Source: a virus
Reading direction: 5' to 3' (one strand)
IMG/VR virus record: IMGVR_UViG_3300031774_000129
Span: 1 to 26,089 of that record
DNA: 26,089 bases
Position 1 is the first letter of the stretch. Each line of letters starts with the position of its first letter. A program made the position numbers and the translations under genes. The notes beneath the pieces are model-generated. The model was not told where the DNA came from and did not search any database. It was given only the letters and a program-made list of their open reading frames with translations. Positions 1-26,089 of the stretch are shown here, in pieces.

Positions 1-115
1 GCTTAGTAAAATCATGAACAACTACAGGTTCTGCAGCCATTTCCACGATATACGCAGGATGGGGACGATACAATTCCGCACCGAGAAGTTTCGGGAAATC
101 GTTATCTATAAACAT
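1..115 (-). CDS. Probable major capsid protein, N-terminal 38 codons (cut by window edge)
   Basis: An open frame starts at ATG 113-115 and runs off the left edge. It begins MFIDNDFPKLLGAELY and continues with HPAYIVEMAAEPVVVHDF. I see no good SD upstream. Portal, scaffold-like protein, then major capsid protein is the canonical head-gene order, and this frame comes directly after the scaffold-like gene and one small ORF. An opening followed by a 'PVVV-DFT' segment resembles my recollection of marine phage capsid proteins, which I could not check. The capsid call is an inference from synteny plus that resemblance; another virion protein is the alternative. Confidence 0.5.
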   Translation of the reverse strand, partial: MFIDNDFPKLLGAELYRPHPAYIVEMAAEPVVVHDFTK

Positions 116-479: not shown

Positions 480-1487
480 TTATTCCATTACAAGTAACTT
501 CTGACGGAAGATCTCAGGATTCTGCTGGGCAGCACTAAGGTACTTCCAAGCGTTCTGAGGATCTCTATCAGCAGCACTACCAAAGTTATTCCAGAACTCA
601 GTAGGATTGCCTTGCTGAACCTCTGGAGCAGGTGGAACAGGCATCTCTGGACGAGATGGAGGTGCTGATGGGAATTGGCCTGTAGGAGCCGCAACAGGAG
701 CAGGAGCTGCAGGTTTGTTAGCTGCTAAAGGATAAGGACCATTAGGACCAAAGAACTTAGTAGTGTAATCGGCAAGTACATCAGGATTAGTAAGAATCTT
801 TTCATAAGCTTTATGCTCATTATTTAATTCTTGTAATAATCCAGCTGCTTCGTGAGTTTGCTTATTTGTAGTTATTAGAGCGTCTTCAACCTTACAAGCG
901 TAGTCATTAAGAACTGCAGGTGCATCAGGACCAAAATGGTCAATTACCTCTAGACTTGCGGGACTGACTCCGTTGGCGAGTAGCTGCTCTGTTGTCAACG
1001 CCTCCTGAGAGATTTGGGAAGAGTTGTTGGAGTAAGCCTGGTTGTTGTTGATCCCAGGCGTAGAGGTCGGCGCTACCTGGCTGCTGTACTGGGCTGGAAT
1101 TTGGGAAGCGTAGTTCGCCTGGTCTGCTACTGGAGTCTGACTCGACTGTTGACCCTGGAACGGGAATTGGACTGGTGAACTCAGGAGCCCCACTACCTTG
1201 TTGAACGCCTCCTTGTAGGGGTTGTCCTGAGGTTGGGATGCCTGGGGTGCCTGGTAACTGGACGGTGTAGGGCTGTAATGGGTTTCCTGAACCCCCATCT
1301 GGGCTGGCACTTGTGGAGCTGGTGCCGCCATCGGCTGGGAGGTTGCCACCCATTGGGGCGACGTTCCCACTGTTGGCGATTGAGCCGCTGTCTGAGCCAC
1401 GGGTGCTGCTGGAGCCGCGTAACTGATCGGCTGGGTCTGGGATGGTTGGGGTGCCGATTGGGTCGGCGCTACGGTAGCGTCCTGCAT
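480..1487 (-). CDS. Capsid assembly/scaffold-like protein, N-terminal half overprinted on the portal gene
   Basis: 335 residues. Positions 1-160 are rich in Pro/Gln/Ala/Ser and likely disordered, with a helical island NPYKEAFNKVV at 89-99. Positions 161-254 look helical (LTTEQLLANG, LNNEHKAYEKILTNP), 255-290 are Pro-rich, and the C-terminus (EFWNNFGSAADRDPQNAW) is charged. Its place between portal and capsid, its length and its low complexity fit a scaffolding protein; no domain proves it. The start is well supported: AAGGAAG lies on the minus strand 6 nt before the ATG. Codons 1-182 overlap the portal 3' end in a different frame, and both frames stay open throughout. It is followed by a terminator. 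Confidence 0.72.
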   Translation of the reverse strand: MQDATVAPTQSAPQPSQTQPISYAAPAAPVAQTAAQSPTVGTSPQWVATSQPMAAPAPQVPAQMGVQETHYSPTPSSYQAPQASQPQDNPYKEAFNKVVGLLSSPVQFPFQGQQSSQTPVADQANYASQIPAQYSSQVAPTSTPGINNNQAYSNNSSQISQEALTTEQLLANGVSPASLEVIDHFGPDAPAVLNDYACKVEDALITTNKQTHEAAGLLQELNNEHKAYEKILTNPDVLADYTTKFFGPNGPYPLAANKPAAPAPVAAPTGQFPSAPPSRPEMPVPPAPEVQQGNPTEFWNNFGSAADRDPQNAWKYLSAAQQNPEIFRQKLLVME

Positions 1488-3228
1488 AAGTAACTTCCTT
1501 CTGAAGGGATTCTAGTGTTCTATATAAAAATGGAGTGAGATCGAGTCTCGGATCTGCAGCCATCGGTAAATTCGGTTGCTGCGGATGTGGCGTTCTCATC
1601 TCTTGATTGATTAAATCAATAAAAGCAGAGTACGCTCTTTGTACTTCTCCAACCATTCTGAACGGGAACCCAGATAACATACCTGCGATTTCGTCGTCAG
1701 TTTTTGATGGGAATAAGTACTTCAGTGCTTCTATACTATCAACACCCAATTCTTGAAGGTTTCGTGTGAAGATAGATTGGTTCAATTTATCCTGCGCAGT
1801 ATCTTCATAAACAGGTCCCATCCAACGCCATAAAATAGTTCTATCACCATCAGGAGCAAGACCTAATACACCATCAGGAATATCTCCTGTCTCTACTGCA
1901 ACATCAATTGCCTCCTGTAATTTCCTTTCATATCTTGCTTTACTTTTACTATATTTCTCTTGTAATTTTTCATCTTCGGGATCTTCAGGTGGTAGTGGAT
2001 ATTTAATACCAGAAACGAAAGCCATTGACTTTCTAAATATCTGTTCTTCTTGGAAAAGAATTAATTCAAAACACTTACAAACACCATAGGTATATAACTG
2101 TAAACATTTCTTTTTAGCCGTCGCACTAACACGTCCATAAGCAGATTTTATTTCAGTAGCAGTTACATTCGTAATACTTAAATCATCAATACCACCTAAC
2201 GCTAAACGTAACTCACTTCGTAACTGTTCCGCATAACGAGCTTGGTCCGTACTAACAGCATTAGGAGTTATAAAACCTACCCTATCTGAAGGTTCTAAGT
2301 TAGCGATAACTCTAGGTACTCGCATACCTGAACCAGGTTTACCAATGTAACCAGAAGGCTGGCGCGAAGAAGGATCTTGTTTATAAGTAGAACTAAATAG
2401 ATTTAGATCAGAAGTAAAACCAGATTGACTAGAAATACTTGGCCTTTGTGCAGTATCGTCGGTATTGTTTTCGACAATATCTTGTTTAGGTCGTGAAGAT
2501 AAAAGAGTTGGATTACCAAAGAAAGATAAATTAGCTCTAATATTTTTGACCATTTCATCGTGAGCAACGATCTGATTAGATAACCACTCAAATTCACCCG
2601 TACCATCAGTACCGAAAGCATCAGGATTATTAAAGACTTCTACACATGGAATAAACTCCATGGTGTTTTCTACTGTCTTTTTATTAAATCCACTAAAGTC
2701 AACTGTTTCTTGATCAAAAGTTATTTCTTTTTCACTATGTATCTCTTCAATTTCAAAAGCAGTTATACGTAAACGCATATAACGTTTATCTGTATTCAAA
2801 CCTACGTTGTTATTGAAACCTTTTTTTGAACGAACTTTATAAGGATAGATTATGATTACTTCTTCTAAATCACCTTCTGGTGTGTAATAACTTCTATAAG
2901 CATCTTTATCAAACCAATAAATACGATATGTTTTCTTTGTTGGTCTTATATAAAAAAGACCTTTACCATAAGCTAAAAAACGATCCCAAATAGAGTCAAG
3001 ACGAGCATCTAACTTATTGAATTTAATAACCTGCTGTATAAAATCAAATCTTTGCGTACCGAAATTATCTTGATGAGGGAAAAATTCAACTCCTTGCCTT
3101 ATCCCAAACATTTTCATTTGAGATAAATGGGCGTTCACCAGCATGGTGTCTGCCGTTCCCGTTCCATCTCGGTCTATAACCGATTTGACAATGGAATCCA
3201 AAACAGATTTACTATTGCTTTCGCTCAT
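940..3228 (-). CDS. Portal protein with a long low-complexity C-terminal tail
   Basis: 762 residues. The head-tail connector forms a dodecameric channel for DNA packaging and ejection. Support comes from its position just downstream of the large terminase, its size, and portal-like segments: an N-terminal alpha/beta part, a helical stretch around LEPSDRVGFITPNAV then QARYAEQLRSELRLALGG, and a following helical region rich in charged residues. After about residue 580 the protein becomes a Gly/Ser/Pro-rich tail of about 180 residues (GSSSTRGSDSGSIANSGN; ends RQRSQSRKSRGN). That tail is exactly the part sharing DNA with the scaffold-like gene. There is no obvious SD before the ATG. Fold comparison would be needed to fix the portal family. 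Confidence 0.82.
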   Translation of the reverse strand: MSESNSKSVLDSIVKSVIDRDGTGTADTMLVNAHLSQMKMFGIRQGVEFFPHQDNFGTQRFDFIQQVIKFNKLDARLDSIWDRFLAYGKGLFYIRPTKKTYRIYWFDKDAYRSYYTPEGDLEEVIIIYPYKVRSKKGFNNNVGLNTDKRYMRLRITAFEIEEIHSEKEITFDQETVDFSGFNKKTVENTMEFIPCVEVFNNPDAFGTDGTGEFEWLSNQIVAHDEMVKNIRANLSFFGNPTLLSSRPKQDIVENNTDDTAQRPSISSQSGFTSDLNLFSSTYKQDPSSRQPSGYIGKPGSGMRVPRVIANLEPSDRVGFITPNAVSTDQARYAEQLRSELRLALGGIDDLSITNVTATEIKSAYGRVSATAKKKCLQLYTYGVCKCFELILFQEEQIFRKSMAFVSGIKYPLPPEDPEDEKLQEKYSKSKARYERKLQEAIDVAVETGDIPDGVLGLAPDGDRTILWRWMGPVYEDTAQDKLNQSIFTRNLQELGVDSIEALKYLFPSKTDDEIAGMLSGFPFRMVGEVQRAYSAFIDLINQEMRTPHPQQPNLPMAADPRLDLTPFLYRTLESLQKEVTYAGRYRSADPIGTPTIPDPADQLRGSSSTRGSDSGSIANSGNVAPMGGNLPADGGTSSTSASPDGGSGNPLQPYTVQLPGTPGIPTSGQPLQGGVQQGSGAPEFTSPIPVPGSTVESDSSSRPGELRFPNSSPVQQPGSADLYAWDQQQPGLLQQLFPNLSGGVDNRAATRQRSQSRKSRGN

Positions 3229-3242
3229 TGTTTTAATTAATT

Positions 3243-3425
3243 CTATTCGTCAATGCTATACCCAGCGTGAAGTCGTTTGAGTGTGATTAGATCATCCTCA
3301 ACTTCAACTTCAAACCTTTCATTAGGTTGGATTGATAAATCATGGCAGAGTTCATCGGGAAGTGGAATTACCACAGAACCGTATGCATCTTGTTCAATCT
3401 CTAACGTGTGATAGGTAATAGCCAT
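3243..3425 (-). CDS. AbrB/MazE-like swapped-hairpin small protein
   Basis: 60 residues. Residues 16-51 (GSVVIPLPDELCHDL, then SIQPNERFEVEVEDD and LITLKRL) follow the AbrB/SpoVT/MazE pattern: a beta strand with 'IP', a short helix, an 'L-I--G/N-' turn, then two strands with an acidic turn. Such proteins bind DNA as dimers and act as regulators or antitoxins. No toxin-like partner is adjacent: the neighbours are the large terminase and the portal, 28 and 14 nt away. A regulator of the head operon or a virion-associated protein are both possible. Upstream GGAAAGAAC is a plausible RBS. The fold call is by eye. Confidence 0.6.
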   Translation of the reverse strand: MAITYHTLEIEQDAYGSVVIPLPDELCHDLSIQPNERFEVEVEDDLITLKRLHAGYSIDE

Positions 3426-3453: not shown

Positions 3454-4977
3454 TCAATACTCTAACTCTAGTTTTCCTCTAGTCATTAAACCATTACATA
3501 ACCAAACTAGAGCATCAACACAGTCATCATGGGAACTTACACCGAAGTTAACGATCTCATCCTTTAATGGTCCAAACCTCCTATATTTATTAAAAATGAT
3601 TTTTCTCTGTTCAAAAAGACCCATAATACCTCTAAAACGAGCAACTTTATCGCCTCTAAAACCTTTAACTGCATGCCAAAGAACATTGTAAAGACCATGG
3701 TCTCCTTGACATATTCTTTTAAAATCTGCTTCTAAAGATGCTTGATATGCAACGGCTTCTGACCAAACATGTATAGAACTTCCTGTTGGAAAATAATTGT
3801 CTTTATCTTTATGAACTACACCCCACTCTTCTAACATCTCCATTAGTGCCTCTAATTTTTCTAAATTACCCATTATCCGTAACCGTTTACAATCAATAAT
3901 ATGGATTTTGTCTTTTATACGACCACCCATTACAAAAACAGTATAATCATTTTGCTCTCGAACACCTGCTGATAAATCAACTCCTATTCCCATTGCATCA
4001 AATTGAGTTGCTATATTCCCTTTAACAATTAAATCAGGTGATAGAGATAACTCACTAGTTTGTATTATTTGATTTTGATACTGAAAACTAAAAGCAACAG
4101 GAGCCTGTCTTCTTCTATCACGTAAATACTCTAAAGACCACATATCAGGCCAATAAGAAACTTCTTCTCCTTCGCCATCTACAGTGATTGCTGATTGAAC
4201 AATCTGAACCCAATCATTAGCTGGGGTAAAAGTACTGTTATGAATATCATCATGTCTAAAACGTGTTCCTAAACAAATAGCTCTACCACCTTCAAACATG
4301 GTGGGGACAATAACTGAATTCCAGTTATCTTCCATTGCTTGGCGAATATCTCTATTTTTAATATCATCAGCACTTTTTATAGCATCATCAATAATACAAA
4401 GATGTGAACGTTTTGATGTCACAGCACCTTTAAGTCCTGCACAACACACAGTAAATTCTTCTTCACCAGTTGACTTAATACCTGCAAATTTCCAATCAAT
4501 ACTCCAATATTCATTAGAATTTATACCTTTAGCAATCTTTACTCTGGGAAAAATTTCACGATAAGTTTTACTTTCATCGATGATTCTTTTAATAGCTGCA
4601 CTCTTAGGTCTCGCAACATCAACTGTGTAAGAAATATAGAGAACTTTTAATGGTTGTTTATTAAGAGCATGTACACCAACTGTCCAAGCTGTATATAAAC
4701 CAAGAATTGTTGATTTAGCACTACCTCTAGGTGCCAAAATATCAATATTCGGTCCACCAATACCTACAAGACATTCGCTATCCTTACCTGTACATAAATA
4801 ACGATGCCACTCACGGTGATGAGCAGCTGGTGGTTTATCTCCTACAACATCACAGAAATAAGCAAAATCTTTTCGTGCTCGTTCTACATCAACACTGGAA
4901 GTTTTTTTTACAACTTGTTGTTTAGCGGCTGCTCGTGCAGTTCGACGATAGACGCTGTAAATACTTGTTCCTGCCAT
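3454..4977 (-). CDS. terL: Terminase large subunit
   Basis: 507 residues, the ATPase-nuclease that pumps and cuts DNA into the prohead. The ATPase domain has a Walker A-like loop PRGSAKST (83-90), a Walker B strand LCIIDD (193-198) and the coupling motif LGTRF (236-240). The nuclease domain has GVDLS (332-336) with catalytic Asp334 and the C-terminal HDDCVDA (483-489), the usual metal-binding acidic pair. Walker A is the deviant R-G-S-A-K-S-T type rather than GxxxxGK[ST], and Walker B ends DD instead of DE. Length is typical of full-length TerL. The TerS-like gene lies 24 nt upstream in the same direction. Confidence 0.96.
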   Translation of the reverse strand: MAGTSIYSVYRRTARAAAKQQVVKKTSSVDVERARKDFAYFCDVVGDKPPAAHHREWHRYLCTGKDSECLVGIGGPNIDILAPRGSAKSTILGLYTAWTVGVHALNKQPLKVLYISYTVDVARPKSAAIKRIIDESKTYREIFPRVKIAKGINSNEYWSIDWKFAGIKSTGEEEFTVCCAGLKGAVTSKRSHLCIIDDAIKSADDIKNRDIRQAMEDNWNSVIVPTMFEGGRAICLGTRFRHDDIHNSTFTPANDWVQIVQSAITVDGEGEEVSYWPDMWSLEYLRDRRRQAPVAFSFQYQNQIIQTSELSLSPDLIVKGNIATQFDAMGIGVDLSAGVREQNDYTVFVMGGRIKDKIHIIDCKRLRIMGNLEKLEALMEMLEEWGVVHKDKDNYFPTGSSIHVWSEAVAYQASLEADFKRICQGDHGLYNVLWHAVKGFRGDKVARFRGIMGLFEQRKIIFNKYRRFGPLKDEIVNFGVSSHDDCVDALVWLCNGLMTRGKLELEY

Positions 4978-5001: not shown

Positions 5002-5487
5002 TTAACTTTCTTCTTGCAATATTTTTGTCCAAACTCCCATTGATGCTTCTTGCAATGGACCTTCTATTGGATCATCACGAAAAATAGTTAACATCTCACG
5101 TAAAGCTCTATCTGCACCAGCAAGAATTAATCCCTGTTTATCCATTAATACTTTCTCATCTCCTATTTGTTTAATTGCACCACGTAATTCTTTTTGTAAC
5201 ATCGCTATACGCGCAGTTCCCATATCTTGCTTTACCATCCCCATGTCAATTGCATCTCGTAATTTAGAAATATCTTGCTGCATTGCATCTATTTCAGACT
5301 CTAATAGCTCATTAAAATTACGTTTTTTAAATTTCTTTTTAGACCATTCATAACAATCCACAATGCTTCCTTTACAACCAAGGAAACGCGCGAATAAATA
5401 AATTTGTATTGGTGAAGTTGCTTGTTTGCAAAAAGCTAAAAAGGATTCACGGTCTTTTGCAGTTAATCCGTTAATCCATTTAATCAT
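5002..5487 (-). CDS. Terminase small subunit candidate
   Basis: 161 residues, directly upstream of terL with a 24-nt gap, the classical TerS position. The N-terminus (SPIQIYLFARFLGCKGSIVD, residues 26-45) could form a helix-turn-helix. The middle is strongly helical and charged (MQQDISKLRDAIDMGMVKQD, then MLQKELRGAIKQIGDE), suggesting oligomerising helices. Small terminases bind pac/cos DNA and diverge too much to recognise by eye, so the call rests on synteny and architecture. Its ATG overlaps the stop of the preceding repeat protein (ATGA), implying translational coupling. Confidence 0.65.
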   Translation of the reverse strand: MIKWINGLTAKDRESFLAFCKQATSPIQIYLFARFLGCKGSIVDCYEWSKKKFKKRNFNELLESEIDAMQQDISKLRDAIDMGMVKQDMGTARIAMLQKELRGAIKQIGDEKVLMDKQGLILAGADRALREMLTIFRDDPIEGPLQEASMGVWTKILQEES

Positions 5488-6611
5488 GCGCGATAGGCAC
5501 TTTGAGCTTGCCCGTAATCTCTTGCTTCTTTATAGCGTCTAAACATCTCTTCTTGCAACCCTGTTTTTCGAGTTTCCCTACCTGTTTTACCGATTGTTGC
5601 TCTTTGTTCCTGTCCTGTCTTACCTATTGTTGCTCTCTGTTCCTGTCCTGTCTTACCTATTGTTGCTCTTTGTTCCTGTCCACCTACTCTTTGTTCGAGA
5701 GTCCTAGTTTGTCTTTGTTCGCTAGCTGTTCTTCCAATTGTTGCTCTTTGTTCCTGTCCACCTATTCGTTGTTGTAACGAAGTTGTAGCTCTCTGCTCTT
5801 GACCACCAATTCTTAATCTCGATTCTTCAGTCGCTCTGGTTTGCTGGCCAGCAGTACGTAATCCCATTCGTTCTTCAAAACCTCTGGTCCTAATACCTGC
5901 TCTTTCTTCCTGTCCTGTAACCCTAGTGGTTGCTCGTGTTTGAGCACCACCTTCGGCTAATCCTGCACGTTGCTCTTGTCCTCTTACTCTTTCCGTTCCA
6001 CGAGTTTGAGCTCCTGTTTCTGCAATCCTTGCTCTATCTTCCTGACCTCTTACCCTTTCGGTACCACGGGTTTGAGCACCTGTTTCTGCAATTCTTGCTC
6101 TATCTTCTTGTCCTCTTACTCTTTCCGTTCCACGAGTTTGAGCACCTGTTTCTGCAATCCTTGCTCTGTCTTCCTGTCCTGAAACTCTCATCCCTGCACG
6201 AGACTGTATTCCTGTTTCAGCAATACGTGCTCTATCCTCTTGACCTTGAACTCTTTGACCAGCACGGTTTTGTTCTCCCATTGACATGTAGTTATATCTC
6301 GTCTCTAATCCAGCAGCCTGAGCTCTTCTAATATCTTGATTTGCATAAGCAGCTGCATTTGCTCTATCTAAACGAGCAGCTAACTCCATGTTATAAGCTT
6401 TTTGAGCTTGAGCTATTTCAGCTAATGCAATTTGAGACTGTAAAGATTGATCAGGTATAGCTGTCCAATCGGTATCACCAAACCAATCGTTTGCTGTCCC
6501 TGTTTCCGCTGACCCTTCACTACTTAAATCCGCAGTAGAAGCAGTAGCATTTGTTCTATCTGCTGCCACATTAGTAGCAGTATTGTTTCCTTGTCGTCTA
6601 CTTGCTCCCAT
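5484..6611 (-). CDS. 11-residue-repeat protein, probable virion structural protein
   Basis: 375 residues. An acidic, Thr/Ala-rich head (1-55) is followed by a helical segment (SLQSQIALAEIAQAQKAYNM) and then, from about residue 112 to 345, tandem 11-residue units with consensus G-Q-E-x-R-A-x-I-x-x-T. Some occur as alternating 22-residue pairs (GQEDRARIAET + GAQTRGTERVR), others as single units (GQEQRATIGKT three times in a row). An 11-residue period fits an extended hendecad helix or coiled coil. The tail (EEMFRRYKEARDYGQAQSAY) is charged. The gene is coupled to the TerS-like gene by an ATGA overlap. The function is unknown; a rod-like internal or connector protein would suit the structure. 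Confidence 0.75.
   Translation of the reverse strand: MGASRRQGNNTATNVAADRTNATASTADLSSEGSAETGTANDWFGDTDWTAIPDQSLQSQIALAEIAQAQKAYNMELAARLDRANAAAYANQDIRRAQAAGLETRYNYMSMGEQNRAGQRVQGQEDRARIAETGIQSRAGMRVSGQEDRARIAETGAQTRGTERVRGQEDRARIAETGAQTRGTERVRGQEDRARIAETGAQTRGTERVRGQEQRAGLAEGGAQTRATTRVTGQEERAGIRTRGFEERMGLRTAGQQTRATEESRLRIGGQEQRATTSLQQRIGGQEQRATIGRTASEQRQTRTLEQRVGGQEQRATIGKTGQEQRATIGKTGQEQRATIGKTGRETRKTGLQEEMFRRYKEARDYGQAQSAYRA
5570..6278 (-). repeat. In-frame 33/66-bp tandem repeats inside the repeat protein gene
   Basis: The DNA encoding the 11-residue units repeats with 33-bp (near 5590-5690) and 66-bp (near 5990-6190) periods. Copies are nearly identical at DNA level within each block and more diverged between blocks, which suggests recent unit duplication. 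All changes keep the frame. Confidence 0.85.
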
Positions 6612-9665: not shown

Positions 9666-10141
9666 TAAACTTCAACTCCTTGACTAGGGAATTTATTCGC
9701 TTCATTAGGATTCATTGTACTCGCCCCAGAGTTTGCAGGTTGCTGTACTAAGAACTCAAGACTCCAAGGACCAACCTCGTCTTCAAAAGCAATTAACCCT
9801 CGTTGAGCACCAATTCGATAATTATTTAACCAATAACTCGCCTCATCATTATGAATAGGATGTTCAAATTCTGGGACATCATATGTTTGACTTAATCTGA
9901 ATAATTTTTCTTCAGCAGGAGGCCATGAATCTTGAAAACCTTTATCCCTAGTGAAATTTCTCCACTCAGGACTATCCATCTGACTGTCTTGTGCAGGGTT
10001 CTTTCTTCTTGGGTCACCTGCATAATCAAATCTTGGGGTAGCACCTATAGTCCCCCAATCAATAGGATCAGAACGTGAAAAAGCTTTATCTCGTAAATCT
10101 TTGTTTTGGTTTAAATCTTTAACTACAATGCCACGCGCCAT
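9665..10141 (-). CDS. Putative structural-operon protein E (158 aa)
   Basis: I choose MARGIVVKDLNQNKDLRD (ATG 10139-10141) because GGGAGG precedes it by 7 nt on the minus strand; an in-frame ATG at 10159 would lie inside the upstream gene. The protein is soluble-looking, charged and rich in aromatic residues (DSWPPAEEKLFRLSQTYDV, EASYWLNNYRIGAQRG, EDEVGPWSLEFLVQQ), unlike its glycine-rich neighbours, with a short disordered tail. A connector, chaperone or minor virion role is possible. No family is recognised. Confidence 0.68.
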   Translation of the reverse strand: MARGIVVKDLNQNKDLRDKAFSRSDPIDWGTIGATPRFDYAGDPRRKNPAQDSQMDSPEWRNFTRDKGFQDSWPPAEEKLFRLSQTYDVPEFEHPIHNDEASYWLNNYRIGAQRGLIAFEDEVGPWSLEFLVQQPANSGASTMNPNEANKFPSQGVEV

Positions 10142-10143
10142 CG

Positions 10144-11763
10144 TTAAACCTCCCACCACAATGGTGTTTCTTCATCTTCTCTTGGTACCCTTACATCATA
10201 AGCGGAAGCGGGTAAAGATTCGTCACGTAACCAATCACTTCCTCCTGTAGGTATGTAGGCTGAACTACCAAATCTGTCTTTCTTTAAACCAATGATGGCA
10301 TCTCCTGGTAACTTAGGTGCTGCAGGGTTGTAATCCATATTGTACTTAGATCTTACATTTGCCATTCTAGCCTCATTTCCTGCCATAGCTCTCATACGTT
10401 CTGCTTGTCGTTCACGAAGATTTGCATCAGCCATTTCTTGAAACTTCTCTTCCCCAACAGCCATTTTTAATCCACGTCTAACAACCTTCTTTGCAGCTTG
10501 ATCACCAGCTTGTGCAAGATTAGATAATACAAGTTTTACCTTGTCAGCATATGGAATATTTAATTGCAGTTTATTAGCCTGATCTCTAACAAAATCTGGA
10601 TTTAAATTTGTAGTGGATGGTGTAGTTAACCCTTGCTGCCTATTTAAACCTGCAAAAGTAGCTTGTTCATTTTCTTGATGAGTATCATTTAATTGTGGTG
10701 AATCACTTAAGTCACTTTCAAGACCTGTTTCAACACCACCAGTCCCTGAGGCAGGTGGATTTAAGAAAGTAGTAGACTGCATCTTGTTATCTGGCATAAC
10801 AGATGCTTTCATTTGCTCGTTAGCTATAACACTATCTACCTCCTGCATCGCTGCGGGGATTTTTTGAACATTAGCTACTGCTTCAGAGACAATATTTCCT
10901 GTTGTATCAAGATCTTTCCCAACTCTCGTTGCTATGTCTTTGGCGCCCTTTTCCGCAATGGTTCCTGCTACTATTGCTGCACCTTTTAAAGGAGAATCAG
11001 CACCAGCGGCTTGGTCAAATCTTTGCCCCCAATTTATCCCTTGATCAAATGCATCAACTTCTTCTTGAGCTTTACTAATCGCACCTCTTGCAAAATCACC
11101 TAAAAAACCTCTTGGATCTTGCTGTGGCCTAGTAATTGCAGTTTGAGGTTTATCAACAACTACAATTTCATCCCTTGGTTGCTCTACAAGGGTAGTAAAA
11201 CCATCAGATTGAGGACTTCCAAAGTCATGTGCGGCAACTGCGCCATAAATACCACTTTTGTTTGATATATCTGACATCTTTTCGCGAAGTGGCGTTGGAT
11301 GTCTAACATCTGGCTCCCTAAAACCATCACCCATAGGACTTTCAAAGTCATGTGCCGCAATGGCATCATGAAGATTATCTATTTTTGATACATCCATCTC
11401 CCTAGTAGGTTCTTTAGGTGGTGTTGGATGACGTACAAACCCTTTTTGACCAACACGAGTAGGAATTTCCCCCACATCGCTCGTTATATCCTCAGAAACG
11501 GGAGAAATATCTGTTTCACCACTTTTTCCTTGACTTAAACCATAAACTGCGCCACCTGCCAACCCTAAGAGGGCTGCTTTACCTAAACCACCTGCTATTT
11601 GGTGAAGAACATTGGGTTTTTCTTGTATTTGACCTCCACGAGCAAAATTTCGGGTGAAATCATACACTTCTGGGGCCATTCTCATCTGTTCTTGAGGGTT
11701 TCTAGGCAATGGACGACCAGTTACACGGGAATATAACTCGAAATCCTGCGGAGAGACAGGCAT
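10144..11763 (-). CDS. Large structural-operon protein F (539 aa), probable internal virion protein
   Basis: First gene of the left arm. It begins MPVSPQDFELYSRVTGRP. Residues 53-78 form a small-residue hydrophobic segment (HQIAGGLGKAALLGLAGGAV) that could span a membrane. Residues 110-148 and 152-189 are an imperfect duplication: each has VRHPTP and then (I/V)AAHDF(E/G)SP and DGF. The middle is largely disordered and polar. Residues about 400-470 are helical and basic (AKKVVRRGLKMAVGEEKF, ANLRERQAERMRAMAG), and the end is acidic (EDEETPLWWEV). A membrane-active segment followed by long flexible and helical regions fits an ejection protein; no homologue is recognised. Confidence 0.68.
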   Translation of the reverse strand: MPVSPQDFELYSRVTGRPLPRNPQEQMRMAPEVYDFTRNFARGGQIQEKPNVLHQIAGGLGKAALLGLAGGAVYGLSQGKSGETDISPVSEDITSDVGEIPTRVGQKGFVRHPTPPKEPTREMDVSKIDNLHDAIAAHDFESPMGDGFREPDVRHPTPLREKMSDISNKSGIYGAVAAHDFGSPQSDGFTTLVEQPRDEIVVVDKPQTAITRPQQDPRGFLGDFARGAISKAQEEVDAFDQGINWGQRFDQAAGADSPLKGAAIVAGTIAEKGAKDIATRVGKDLDTTGNIVSEAVANVQKIPAAMQEVDSVIANEQMKASVMPDNKMQSTTFLNPPASGTGGVETGLESDLSDSPQLNDTHQENEQATFAGLNRQQGLTTPSTTNLNPDFVRDQANKLQLNIPYADKVKLVLSNLAQAGDQAAKKVVRRGLKMAVGEEKFQEMADANLRERQAERMRAMAGNEARMANVRSKYNMDYNPAAPKLPGDAIIGLKKDRFGSSAYIPTGGSDWLRDESLPASAYDVRVPREDEETPLWWEV

Positions 11764-12363: not shown

Positions 12364-13221
12364 ATGCATCTATCAAGCGACCTAAGACAATTCAAACAAG
12401 CTTTTAAGCTTAATCCTAGTAACGTCCTAACTCTAACTAATCCTAAAGTTTTAAAATCTGACAGTATCGCACCAACTGCGGTGTTACATATGTTACCAAC
12501 TAAGGTAGCCTGTCCTGCTGCTGGTACATGTGCACTAGTCTGTCTCAATACTGCTGGTAATCCTGCATATCTCAAGGGGAAGTTAGCTTGTAGAGCTAGA
12601 AGGGATAAAGCGTTCAGAACATCACCAAATCTATTTTTAAGACTACTGACTATTGAGGTTTTAAGATTCTATTTAAAGAATAGAGACAATGACCTTTTAG
12701 GCTTACGCTTGAACGGTACATCCGACTATCATTGGGAGAATATCGCAGTAAACATTACAGAGACAGACAGTAAATATATTTTAAAGACTTTCAACATTAA
12801 CTTAAATGCTGGTAGATACGACTCCATACTATTAGCTATCTTGAACGCTTACGACTACAACAAAGAGTCAAGAGTTGGGGATACTCTACACGCTTACGAC
12901 TACACCAAAAGAACAGACAGAGACTTTCAAAAGTGCTTTAATATGTCATATCATTTGACTTTAAGCCATGGCAGTAAATTTAATACCTTACAGGCAGCAT
13001 TGGAGAATAAATTGAATTATGCTGCTGCATTTGATATTGGCCGCAATAAGCCACTACCTGAGACTAGTACTATTAATGGAGTTACTTTTAAAGTTCTAGA
13101 CGGTGATAAGACAGACTGGAGAGTAGGAGACAAAGACGGAGAAACCTTCATTATTGGCTTACGCTTTAAGCGTGTTCCAAACATGACAGAAGAGCTCAAA
13201 AGATCCTTTTGTATCGCTTAG
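12364..13221 (+). CDS. GP88-family protein (conserved phage protein of unknown function)
   Basis: 285 residues, first gene of the right arm. A cysteine cluster ACPAAGTCALVCLNTAG (Cys50, 56, 60) plus Cys76 in ACRARRDKAF, followed by GLRLNGTSDYHWE (113-125), matches the pattern I know for the GP88 family of mycobacteriophages and many other phages and plasmids. The conserved cysteines suggest a metal or Fe-S site; biochemical function is not established to my knowledge. AAAGG lies 10 nt before the ATG. A 12-bp hairpin follows the gene. Being first on the arm beside a possible origin, an early or replication-linked role is plausible but unproven. Confidence 0.75.
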   Translation: MHLSSDLRQFKQAFKLNPSNVLTLTNPKVLKSDSIAPTAVLHMLPTKVACPAAGTCALVCLNTAGNPAYLKGKLACRARRDKAFRTSPNLFLRLLTIEVLRFYLKNRDNDLLGLRLNGTSDYHWENIAVNITETDSKYILKTFNINLNAGRYDSILLAILNAYDYNKESRVGDTLHAYDYTKRTDRDFQKCFNMSYHLTLSHGSKFNTLQAALENKLNYAAAFDIGRNKPLPETSTINGVTFKVLDGDKTDWRVGDKDGETFIIGLRFKRVPNMTEELKRSFCIA

Positions 13222-23178: not shown

Positions 23179-24879
23179 GTGGCGCTACCTGCAGGTCCTG
23201 GAAGAGACGAATTATGGGCGAGAGCACAAGCAGATCCAGATAATTACAGAGATACATGGGATGAAAACCAAGTACCAGATAGTGAAAAAGGAAGGGTTGG
23301 TCCAAGGTATACATATGATCGCAAGTGGAAAGAAAAACCCTTAGGAGCAGTATGGAAAGATGAACAAAAAAGTACTACGAATAAAATAAATAACAATAAT
23401 ACAAATAACAGAGAAGTACAGATGTCAAGAATGTTATTACCTGATCTTCCACATGAGAGAGGAGGTGGTAGAGGTTTCGGTGGAAGAAGAGGAGGTGGTA
23501 GAGGTTTCGGTGGAAGAAGAGGAGGTGGTGGATATGGTGGAGGCTACGACATTGTTGATCATGAATTAAATAGATATCAACCTGCTTTTGACCATGTTCA
23601 AAGATATCCTAGAGGATATGGTGGAAGAGGTGGTGGCTCTGGTGGAGGATATGGTGGAGGATATGGTGGAGGATATAGTGGTGGCTATGGTGGTGGTGGT
23701 AATAGTGGATCGACTAACAATGTTATAAACATAATGAACCAGCCTAGTGGAGGTAATAATACACAGGGACAAAATGTAGGTAATACAAAAATTGGAGGAG
23801 ATTCTTGGGGAGGTATAAGAGGGAATTCCGATCTTGGTGACGATGTTACCTTTGGTGGTGCTAAAGAAACAGAGCTGGGGTCAAAAAAGAAAACTGATAT
23901 ATATAAAGAAACAGAGCTGGGGTCAAAAAATAAAAATGATGATGGTTCTTTAAAAGATGACACGAAAAACATAACTGAAAAAGCTGATGATTTTTTAAAA
24001 AAAATAATACACCACGATGATGGTTCAAAAACCATACATCACAAGGATAAATCAATACAAACAGTTAATGCAGACACTAGAACTGATAAACAAAAAGCGG
24101 ATGATGCAACTAGAGGAGACTATAAAAATTATGTAAATGCTGCCTATCAAAGATTATTAGAAAGAGACGCTAATTATGAAGGTGGTAGAGGTTCGACGAA
24201 AAACGCCAACTGGTGGGTAGATAGCTTAATGGGAGAAGGAGGTTTAAAAGCAGAACATGGTGGAGATTGGAAGAAATGGATTGATGCTGGTATTGAAGGA
24301 AGTGATGAGTATAAGAAAAAATATAGTGACACAATAAGACATGCAGATGGTTCAGTACAAAGGGTACATAACACAGGAAACAATGAAAATGCTGCTAATT
24401 TCTTAAAAGCAGCTGCTAGTTCAGTGAGTGATACAGGGAAAGTAGGTGAAACGATACACCATGATGATGGCTCCATACAAACTGTTTATAAAACAATTGA
24501 AACCCCAGCTACAAAAGCATTTAGTGGGACAAGAGGTGATATTAAAGACTACGTTAATGTAGCGTATCAAGATCTATTAGGAAGACAAGCTAATTATGAA
24601 GGTGGTATGGGATCAGGACAAAATGCTAATTATTGGGTAGATCGTTTATTAAAACAACACCCATCAGAAAAAGGAGCTGTTGACTTAAGTGGTACTGGTG
24701 GGGATTGGAGAAAATGGATTGATGCTGGTATTAAGGGTAGTGATGAATATATTAATAGAAAGAAAACTGGAGCTACAGATAAATCAGGTCGAGACGTCGT
24801 AATAAGTCAGCAAGGTACTACAGCAAGTGATTATCTAAAAAACGTAGTTAATAAGCAACATAAGGAATGGTTCCTATAG
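23179..24879 (+). CDS. Glycine-rich fibre/adhesin-like protein with two DUF4214-like units (566 aa)
   Basis: The apparent start is GTG 23179 with a weak RBS; ATG 23422 is an alternative. The N-terminus (1-80) is polar. Residues 94-175 are an RGG/GYGG-rich stalk (GGGRGFGGRR twice, then GGYGGGYGGGYSGGY). Residues 122-147 (YDIVDHELNRYQPAFDHVQR) are shared with the next gene. Two units at 312-379 and 452-525 follow DUF4214: DYVNVAYQDLLGR--NYEGG, then ANYWVDRLL and WIDAGIKGSDEY. Each is preceded by a HHDDGS--TV-like hairpin repeat. DUF4214 occurs in secreted and surface proteins. A tail-fibre or virion-surface role is inferred. Confidence 0.68.
   Translation: MALPAGPGRDELWARAQADPDNYRDTWDENQVPDSEKGRVGPRYTYDRKWKEKPLGAVWKDEQKSTTNKINNNNTNNREVQMSRMLLPDLPHERGGGRGFGGRRGGGRGFGGRRGGGGYGGGYDIVDHELNRYQPAFDHVQRYPRGYGGRGGGSGGGYGGGYGGGYSGGYGGGGNSGSTNNVINIMNQPSGGNNTQGQNVGNTKIGGDSWGGIRGNSDLGDDVTFGGAKETELGSKKKTDIYKETELGSKNKNDDGSLKDDTKNITEKADDFLKKIIHHDDGSKTIHHKDKSIQTVNADTRTDKQKADDATRGDYKNYVNAAYQRLLERDANYEGGRGSTKNANWWVDSLMGEGGLKAEHGGDWKKWIDAGIEGSDEYKKKYSDTIRHADGSVQRVHNTGNNENAANFLKAAASSVSDTGKVGETIHHDDGSIQTVYKTIETPATKAFSGTRGDIKDYVNVAYQDLLGRQANYEGGMGSGQNANYWVDRLLKQHPSEKGAVDLSGTGGDWRKWIDAGIKGSDEYINRKKTGATDKSGRDVVISQQGTTASDYLKNVVNKQHKEWFL
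23461..23520 (+). repeat. Perfect 30-bp tandem duplication encoding GGGRGFGGRR
   Basis: The 30-bp unit at 23461-23490 is repeated exactly at 23491-23520. Both copies encode GGGRGFGGRR in frame. Perfect identity implies a recent duplication by slippage or recombination in the glycine-rich stalk. Confidence 0.9.
23542..23636 (+). repeat. Long direct repeat, copy 1 (95 bp), shared with 25395-25489
   Basis: This 95-bp block matches 25395-25489 with a single mismatch and encodes the shared GYDIVDHELNR-QPAFDHVQR segment. A second 45-bp block (23743-23787) is identical to 25635-25679. Direct copies in neighbouring genes in the same orientation invite recombination. Confidence 0.9.
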
Positions 24880-24950: not shown

Positions 24951-26089
24951 ATGGCTACGCGCGGTAATCAGTATGGCGGATTCAACAAAAGAATAGCTGA
25001 TAACGAGTTTGAAAATAATGGTGGTTTTGGCGGCGCCAATTTAACGGTTATGAGAGACTGGTATAACCCAAAAACAGGTCAAAGAACATCAGTCACTGAT
25101 GGTAAAACACCAAAAGCAGGTACAGGCTGGGAACGTTACCAAGGTCCAGGTGGTAATGATGATGGAAGAGCTAACGCAGTAAGAGCTGCTATGAAAGCTG
25201 AAAAAAGAGCATACGAAAATAGTGGTCCAAGACAAGGTTCAGGAATTAGAAATGCTGGCTTTAGAAGTGATGAATCATGGAATCCTGCAGGAGAAGGTTA
25301 TATTCCGAGAAAGAGTGAAGGTCTAGGAGCACTTCCACCTCCTCCTCCTCCCGGTTACAGCGGTAGAAGAGGGGGTGGTAGAGGTTTCGGTAGGGGCTAC
25401 GACATTGTTGATCATGAATTAAATAGAGATCAACCTGCTTTTGACCATGTTCAAAGATATCCTAGAGGATATGGTGGAAGAGGTGGTGGTGGAAGAGGTG
25501 GTGGTAGAAGAGGTGGTCTTCCTGGACTCATACCTGTTGGTGGTGATAACTACGGAGGAGGAGCAAGAAGAGGAGGAAATAACTACGGAGGAGGAGGTGG
25601 TGGAATTAATAACATTATTAACATACTGAATCAACCTAGTGGAGGTAATAATACACAGGGACAAAATGTAGGTAATACACAAGCTGGTGGTATCTGGGAC
25701 AACGGTAAAGGTCCTACTCAGTACGGAGGAATATCTAATGGAGGAGGGGGTAGCTCTACTGGAGGAGGGGGCACCTCTACTGGAGGAGGACAATGGAATA
25801 AAGGCGCCATTTTAGATTGGTTAAAAGATAATTGGGGAACAACAACAGGTGGAGGTACAACTACTGAAGGAGGAGGAGGAGCAACAACAACAGGGGGAAC
25901 AACAACAGGAGGAGGTACAACTACTGAAGGAGGAGGAGCAACAACAACAACAGGGGGAGGTACAACTACTGAAGGAGGAACAACAACAACAACAGGGGGA
26001 ACAACAACAGGAGGAGGTACAACTACTGAAGGAGGAGGAGCAACAACAACAACAGGGGGAGGTACAACTACTGAAGGAGGAACAACAAC
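24951..26089 (+). CDS. Second glycine/threonine-rich fibre-like protein (5' part, runs off window)
   Basis: Open from ATG 24951 (MATRGNQYGGFNKRIADNEF) to the window end, at least 379 residues. The order is: a unique N-terminus with RDWYNPKTGQRTSVTDGKTP, a Pro run (LPPPPPPGYSG), the RGGGRGFG motif, the shared YDIVDHELNR-QPAFDHVQR block, an RGGG/NNYGGG stalk, the shared QPSGGNNTQGQNVGNT block, and a Thr/Gly/Glu repeat array (TTTGGGTTTEGG-type). There is no SD. It is clearly related to the preceding gene in its middle but not at its N-terminus. A fibre or surface role is inferred. Its C-terminal domain is outside the window. Confidence 0.68.
   Translation, partial: MATRGNQYGGFNKRIADNEFENNGGFGGANLTVMRDWYNPKTGQRTSVTDGKTPKAGTGWERYQGPGGNDDGRANAVRAAMKAEKRAYENSGPRQGSGIRNAGFRSDESWNPAGEGYIPRKSEGLGALPPPPPPGYSGRRGGGRGFGRGYDIVDHELNRDQPAFDHVQRYPRGYGGRGGGGRGGGRRGGLPGLIPVGGDNYGGGARRGGNNYGGGGGGINNIINILNQPSGGNNTQGQNVGNTQAGGIWDNGKGPTQYGGISNGGGGSSTGGGGTSTGGGQWNKGAILDWLKDNWGTTTGGGTTTEGGGGATTTGGTTTGGGTTTEGGGATTTTGGGTTTEGGTTTTTGGTTTGGGTTTEGGGATTTTGGGTTTEGGTT
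25395..25489 (+). repeat. Long direct repeat, copy 2 (95 bp)
   Basis: One mismatch from 23542-23636. It lies at the corresponding place in the second glycine-rich gene, between an RGG motif and the glycine stalk. Confidence 0.9.
25635..25679 (+). repeat. 45-bp direct repeat shared with 23743-23787
   Basis: Identical to 23743-23787 over 45 bp and encodes the PSGGNNTQGQNVGNT segment in both proteins. It follows the longer shared block in the same order in both genes. Confidence 0.88.
25851..26089 (+). repeat. Threonine/glycine tandem repeat array with a 102-bp higher-order unit
   Basis: GGAGGTACAACTACTGAAGG occurs at 25851, 25911, 25956, 26013 and 26058. The segment 25911-26012 (102 bp, 34 codons) is repeated perfectly from 26013 until the window edge (77 bp seen). 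The array keeps the frame and encodes runs of Thr and Gly with periodic Glu. It probably continues beyond the window. Confidence 0.9.

Follow-up and report, generated by a model that had tools for sequence, protein, structure and literature searches.

Sequence comparisons point to an old overlap between a portal tail and a scaffold-like protein in S-EIV1-like phages

In a 26-kb virus fragment from IMG/VR (26,089 nt, analysed in full and referred to here as the window), the portal gene shares its last 548 nt with a second open frame, and the question raised by this locus is whether one stretch of DNA encodes two protein ends at once, the C-terminal tail of a portal and the N-terminal part of a scaffold-like protein. 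The relevant head genes are all located on the minus strand, and their order is fixed by the position of the terminase large subunit gene (3454..4977, 507 aa; phrog_38 at 1e-77 and PF17289 at 1e-7), which is followed by the portal gene, the second frame and the major capsid gene. The portal gene (940..3228, 762 aa, ATG at 3228, stop TGA at 942-940) is composed of a conserved core, codons 1-580, and a low-complexity tail, codons 581-762. The second frame (480..1487, 335 aa) runs from an ATG inside the portal gene (1487-1485) to a TAA at 482-480, and beyond the overlap it includes a scaffold-only part (480..939) that is homologous in all four clades of relatives described below and that contains a conserved C-terminal segment, DRDPQNAWKYL...KLLVME (483-569). 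The major capsid gene is cut by the window edge, leaving its 5' end (1..112, MFIDNDFPKLLGAELYRPHPAYI...), and its full-length relatives match the phrog_1357 major head protein at 1e-14 to 1e-19. The terminase, portal and capsid genes are homologous to those of S-EIV1-like phages and stand in the same order, and the window was assigned to this large and widespread group. Between the terminase and portal genes lies an AbrB-like gene of 60 aa (3243..3425, minus strand; phrog_661 at 5e-7, phrog_4681 at 0.0015); its product resembles antitoxin-type DNA-binding proteins, and small genes alike are found at the same place in two relatives (L008 and L037) and in the freshwater Synechococcus phage S-EIVl (KJ410740.1; S-EIV1 in the literature).

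The identification of the upstream gene as a portal is supported by profiles and, tentatively, by fold. Its product in the window matches phrog_20475 (virion structural protein) at 1e-218 and, weakly, the portal family phrog_104 at 0.007, while the portal family phrog_64 was matched by 8 of 15 relatives, with a best value of 1e-5, and by the relative L387 at 3e-7. The AlphaFold portal models were poor (mean pLDDT of 39 and 42 with 15 and 51 sequences, respectively) and permit a rough domain match only; with such a poor model, every Foldseek row at E <= 0.001 is a portal, and the best fold match (Z of 7.7) covers residues 58-210 only. A sequence search against solved structures returned only chance antibody matches. 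The portal tail is probably a disordered, G/S/P-rich extension of ~180 residues, and the first ~180 residues of the second protein, encoded over this tail, are rich in Q, A, P and S. This second protein is most likely a capsid scaffold, judging from its composition and from the location of its gene between the portal gene and the phrog_1357 major capsid gene; no PHROG or Pfam match was obtained for it, and similarity to known scaffolds was not found.

The original prediction had described two same-strand frames that stay open together over 548 bp within a GC island, and all of its numbers were reproduced. The portal frame (3228..940) and the second frame (1487..480) share positions 940-1487 and are out of frame by one base, the second frame being one base ahead. 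Rows 1321-1380 and 1381-1440 each contain 40 G+C of 60, as compared with 18 of 60 in row 2041-2100, and the G+C content of the window is 58.9% in the overlap, 36.1% in the portal core and 43.9% in the scaffold-only part. In every clade examined the overlap has 58-63% G+C versus 36-46% in the core, making the GC island a conserved trait of the dual-coding DNA. It likely arises because the third positions of portal codons are the second positions of scaffold codons and because both proteins are rich in G, P, A, S, T and Q.

Approximately 545 loci were gathered from IMG/VR via portal similarity and DNA patterns, and the removal of duplicates and short contigs resulted in 305 distinct loci reaching 700 nt beyond codon 580. 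They fall into four clades, namely A (that of the window), B (that of S-EIVl, the sole isolate among the relatives, whose portal shares 53-56% identity with that of the window), C (L388-like) and D (L387-like), and portals are ~45-56% identical between clades. Both frames are open, with the second frame running past the portal stop, in 304 of the 305 loci and in all four clades, and the overlap is 485-677 nt long. The sole exception, a 5.5-kb contig (L069), carries a 134-nt deletion breaking both frames, which may be real or an assembly error; as a single deletion that disrupts both frames together, it was rejected as a counter-example to dual coding. Among the loci taken by DNA pattern and not by portal similarity, the ATG was found in 106 of 106 and both frames in 88 of 90, the two exceptions being the same contig and a locus with an intact overlap (L340), whose second frame is cut short at a point past the portal stop. 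In addition, the portal stop of one locus (L107) lies 9 nt before the contig end, and another locus (L366) appears frame-broken. Among the relatives, none was found in which the portal stops near codon 580 or in which the second frame starts well downstream, and no sequencing indel artefact was found.

For the analysis of selection, substitutions in the overlap were classed as silent in both frames (SS), changing the portal only, changing the scaffold only, or changing both. The rates per site in this order are 0.485, 0.138, 0.099 and 0.048 in clade A, 0.292, 0.147, 0.068 and 0.041 in clade B, 0.629, 0.169, 0.119 and 0.070 in clade C, and 0.451, 0.094, 0.119 and 0.036 in clade D, the silent-in-both rates being rough since those classes are small (15-31 changes per clade). 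The silent-in-both rates, 0.29-0.63, are near or somewhat under the synonymous rates of the portal core. For clades A-D, respectively, omega is 0.49, 0.60, 0.59 and 0.30 in the portal tail (NN/SN) and 0.35, 0.28, 0.41 and 0.38 in the scaffold N-terminus (NN/NS), as compared with 0.86, 1.00, 0.98 and 0.83 (NN/NS) and 0.77-0.85 (SN/SS) when this +1 frame is examined in the portal core as a control. The codon-level dN/dS-type test on relatives that had been suggested for this locus thus reveals purifying selection on both frames in all four clades, with control frames at ~0.8 or more. Tree-based change counts agree with constraint on both frames, and the phase of substitution shifts, with portal third positions at 0.27/0.31 in the core versus 0.09/0.07 in the overlap. 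Genuine overprinting between the portal C-terminal tail and the scaffold-like N-terminus is strongly supported by these alignments, according to which dual coding is real, old and conserved across clades with about half-identical portals.

Several other readings of the locus have to be weighed against dual coding. According to one of them, the scaffold frame alone is functional, and the portal would be finished by about codon 586, its tail being translated but held open passively. The portal fold seemingly ends near residue 582 on the weak model, the distant Bacteroides phage BS162P1 has a portal of 524 aa without an overlap, and the omega of the portal tail exceeds that of the scaffold in clades A, B and C, all of which speak for this scenario. 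However, substitutions that change the portal and are silent in the scaffold are 2-5 fold below those silent in both in all clades, and a control in which the portal frame was extended beyond its stop into the scaffold-only part gives 1.6-1.8 (NN/NS; clades A and B). Motifs are also retained in the portal frame, with PxPG(S/T), mostly GxADL, and a basic C-terminus kept across clades. The motif GSADLYAWDQQQPGLLQQLFPN near the portal C-terminus (1012..1077, minus strand) retains a GxADL core in the majority of sequences from every clade, and portal-changing substitutions are rare there (0.05) while scaffold-changing ones are frequent (0.24). The other portal-frame motif, TSPIPVPGST (1147..1176, minus strand; PxPG(S/T) in four clades), is encoded by the same DNA as the scaffold-frame motif NPYKEAFNKVVGLLSSPVQFPFQGQ (1149..1223, minus strand), for which (N/D)P(W/Y)xxA(F/M) is shared by all clades and where the scaffold frame is more constrained. 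Along the overlap, constraint on portal-tail codons 21-120 is mostly scaffold-driven, and portal-driven constraint is located at codons 141-160 in clade A, which are constrained in the portal frame only, and at about 121-140 in clade B. It is therefore very unlikely that the scaffold frame alone is functional.

The converse scenario, in which the portal frame alone is coding, the second gene begins downstream of the portal stop and the +1 frame stays open as a side effect of GC-rich, low-complexity portal sequence, appears less probable still. It agrees with the annotation of S-EIVl, where the second gene (AHV82225.1) starts after the portal stop, and to some degree with a chance test in which the portal-tail protein was fixed, its codons were permuted or redrawn from the core, and openness in +1 was scored. 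In the clade of the window, 4-30% of recoded tails were still open (tested with L003, a near-identical copy of the window), as compared with 0.1-0.5% for S-EIVl and its nearest relatives. At such chance levels the open +1 frame in one genome is weak evidence, and it is the comparison of relatives that decides. The +1 frame of the portal core is open in just 2 of 5081 (overlapping) 516-nt windows and the third frame of the overlap is closed in 304 of the 305 distinct loci, so that, together with their retention among relatives, the two open frames are non-random. Moreover, scaffold-changing, portal-silent substitutions occur at 0.07-0.12 versus 0.29-0.63 for those silent in both in the four clades, with the core at ~1, and the start codon is kept in 305 of 305 loci, as is a Shine-Dalgarno core (AGGA, GGAG, GAGG or AAGG within 18 nt of the start) in 239 of 239 clade A and B loci.

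For the internal start, the Shine-Dalgarno-like stretch AAGGAAG (1494..1500, minus strand), which also codes for portal residues 576-578 (QKE), was confirmed to be at the right distance from the internal ATG (1500..1494, 6 nt away), and a TAG at 1512..1514 closes the second frame upstream of this ATG. A stop that closes the second frame no more than 30 nt upstream of the start is present in 303 of the 305 loci. The start codon and its place differ by clade, being ATG at +2 in clades A and B, GTG at +5 in clade C and ATG at +14 in clade D, and for some clade D starts the Shine-Dalgarno stretch is less obvious at standard spacing. The last portal codons before the start display almost no synonymous change, and none in clade B pairs. 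Given the conserved Shine-Dalgarno stretch and the closed upstream frame, internal initiation fits, and these features point to it as the way in which the second frame begins. The suggestion that portal and scaffold synthesis are locked together found no support, a start codon and a Shine-Dalgarno stretch of its own being available to the second gene; coupling of scaffold to portal translation is possible. With the frames in a +1 relation over ~500 nt, a programmed +1 frameshift anywhere in the overlap would yield a fused portal-scaffold protein, either replacing internal initiation or in addition to it. Such a mechanism is hardly to be expected, since a stop interrupts the second frame shortly before its conserved start, which is preceded by a Shine-Dalgarno stretch, as in an independent gene.

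The least probable reading, that slow synonymous evolution is due to a DNA or RNA element and not to a second protein, could appeal to a 23-nt nucleotide-level element upstream in the portal core, but the constraint in the overlap tracks the +1 codon phase, the third-frame control differs, and the consensus RNA structure predicted between -260 and +40 relative to the start is a weak one (35 pairs, of which 4 show double changes; an energy of -16.3 over 301 columns), with no Rfam match around the internal start. The 23-nt element itself (GTTGATAGNATNGAAGCACTGAA; window 1721-1743, minus strand; portal codons 496-503, ~234 nt upstream of the internal start) is perfectly matched in 229 of the 243 loci from clades A and B, even though synonymous codons vary freely elsewhere, and among the matches listed in an IMG/VR scan it occurred only in these portal genes. 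Over the last 100 codons of the portal core (~481-580, window 1488-1790), synonymous change is about halved in close clade A and B pairs and the protein is near-invariant; as regards a hidden frame there, four of the five other frames contain stops in every locus examined, and one antisense frame holds 0-5 stops.

The original prediction also held that one of the frames originated de novo on top of the other; the overprint itself stands, and a de novo origin is plausible, in either direction. In 42 of 46 and 49 of 49 loci it is the portal frame whose codon usage comes closer to that of the portal core, which favours it as the better adapted frame, whereas composition leans in the opposite direction, the scaffold overlap resembling the rest of the scaffold in amino acids. 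No close relative without the overlap was found in scans with the portals of S-EIVl, L163, L387 and L388 or in a genome search, and either frame may be the older. The absence of an overlap in BS162P1 (OP172706.1) suggests that the arrangement is derived, with this phage too distant to fix the ancestral state. Its portal matches phrog_64 at 1e-32 and phrog_20475 weakly, and its capsid belongs to phrog_1357, the S-EIV1-like capsid family; in contrast to the window, its shorter portal is followed by a separate 250-aa gene before the capsid gene.

The isolate S-EIVl has the same gene order and the same overlap as the window. Its portal gene is located at 57537-59840 and the second frame can be read at 59287-60264 (9742-10719 of locus L002), with the conserved start at 59287; the overlap is missing from the record, in which AHV82225.1 (59863-60264) represents the last part of the second frame only. 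Over half of the scaffold-like protein is thus missing from the annotation of the group, the reference isolate included, with consequences for structural and proteomic work. The major capsid frame of S-EIVl (phrog_1357 at 1e-19; L002 11314-12465, KJ410740.1 60859-62010) lies in a region annotated as an antisense gene, AHV82227.1, and a short gene for the capsid end, AHV82228.1. In addition, the terminase large subunit of S-EIVl (L002 4535-7075, 846 aa) contains an intein splicing domain (PF14890 at 1e-11, residues 202-526), whereas none is present in the 507-aa terminase of the window.

Among known systems, phage lambda produces its scaffold Nu3 by internal initiation inside gene C (protease), in the same frame and with shared sequence. 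The window is similar in that a scaffold would be started internally in an upstream head gene, but Nu3 is in frame with C, whereas the two frames of the window differ and the host gene encodes the portal. A list of lambda genes is given in PMC10695390. The A/K pair of phiX174 is a terminal overprint, and overlapping genes are enriched in disordered sequence (PMC8227390); as in the window, the 3' end of one gene lies out of frame over the 5' start of the next, although long overprints are best known from small genomes. The median +1 overlap in virus reference genomes measures 14 nt, with an interquartile range of 8-26 (PMC8903798), and 84% of overlaps are <50 nt (PMC7017920). In large dsDNA phages, extensive out-of-frame overlaps are seldom encountered; the present one, between two head-assembly genes, exceeds the usual length for such a phage and has been kept at ~500-600 nt across four clades. 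The portal of P22 has 725 aa with a C-terminal barrel, and its incorporation depends on the scaffold, with contacts at the wing and crown (PMC13386823). Both are large portals with an extra C-terminal part; the tail in the window differs in being of low complexity, having no barrel and sharing DNA with a scaffold-like gene. No earlier description of a portal/scaffold overprint was found in the literature searched, the original S-EIV1 paper being outside that search. As an old and stable overprint with hundreds of aligned examples, the locus should be useful for studying how two proteins divide constraint.

Taken as a whole, it is highly probable that the 548 nt are truly dual-coding, with a likely scaffold initiated internally over the portal tail, and both proteins are presumably made. 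Some ribosomes on the mRNA of the portal gene would read to its end and add the tail of ~180 residues, and others would start at the internal ATG, just past the last predicted helix of the portal core, by means of the Shine-Dalgarno stretch in codons 576-578. Reading in +1 would then give a protein of ~335 residues, the first ~180 of which lie over the portal tail, and the low-complexity sequence on both sides may let one DNA stretch serve two proteins. If the second protein functions as a scaffold, as we infer, the portal tail would presumably be located inside the procapsid, where it could meet the scaffold. Mutual binding, in which the disordered tail extends into the procapsid and its GxADL and PxPG motifs dock the scaffold, is a speculative and rather doubtful extension of this picture; if true, both partners of the interaction by which head assembly is initiated would be encoded in one overprinted segment.

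Elsewhere in the window, a 375-aa frame (5484-6611, minus strand) consists mostly of ~22-residue repeats (RVRGQEDRARIAETGAQTRGTE). A 285-aa protein with a PF17338 GP88 match at 8e-13 is encoded at 12364-13221 on the plus strand, close to where the minus-strand structural genes give way to genes on the other strand. Two long glycine-rich frames on the plus strand (23179-24879 and 24951-26087) have in common a similar segment, RRGGGRGFGxGYDIVDHELNRxQPAFDHVQRYPRGYGGRGGG, and the second of them runs on into T/G repeats at the window end.
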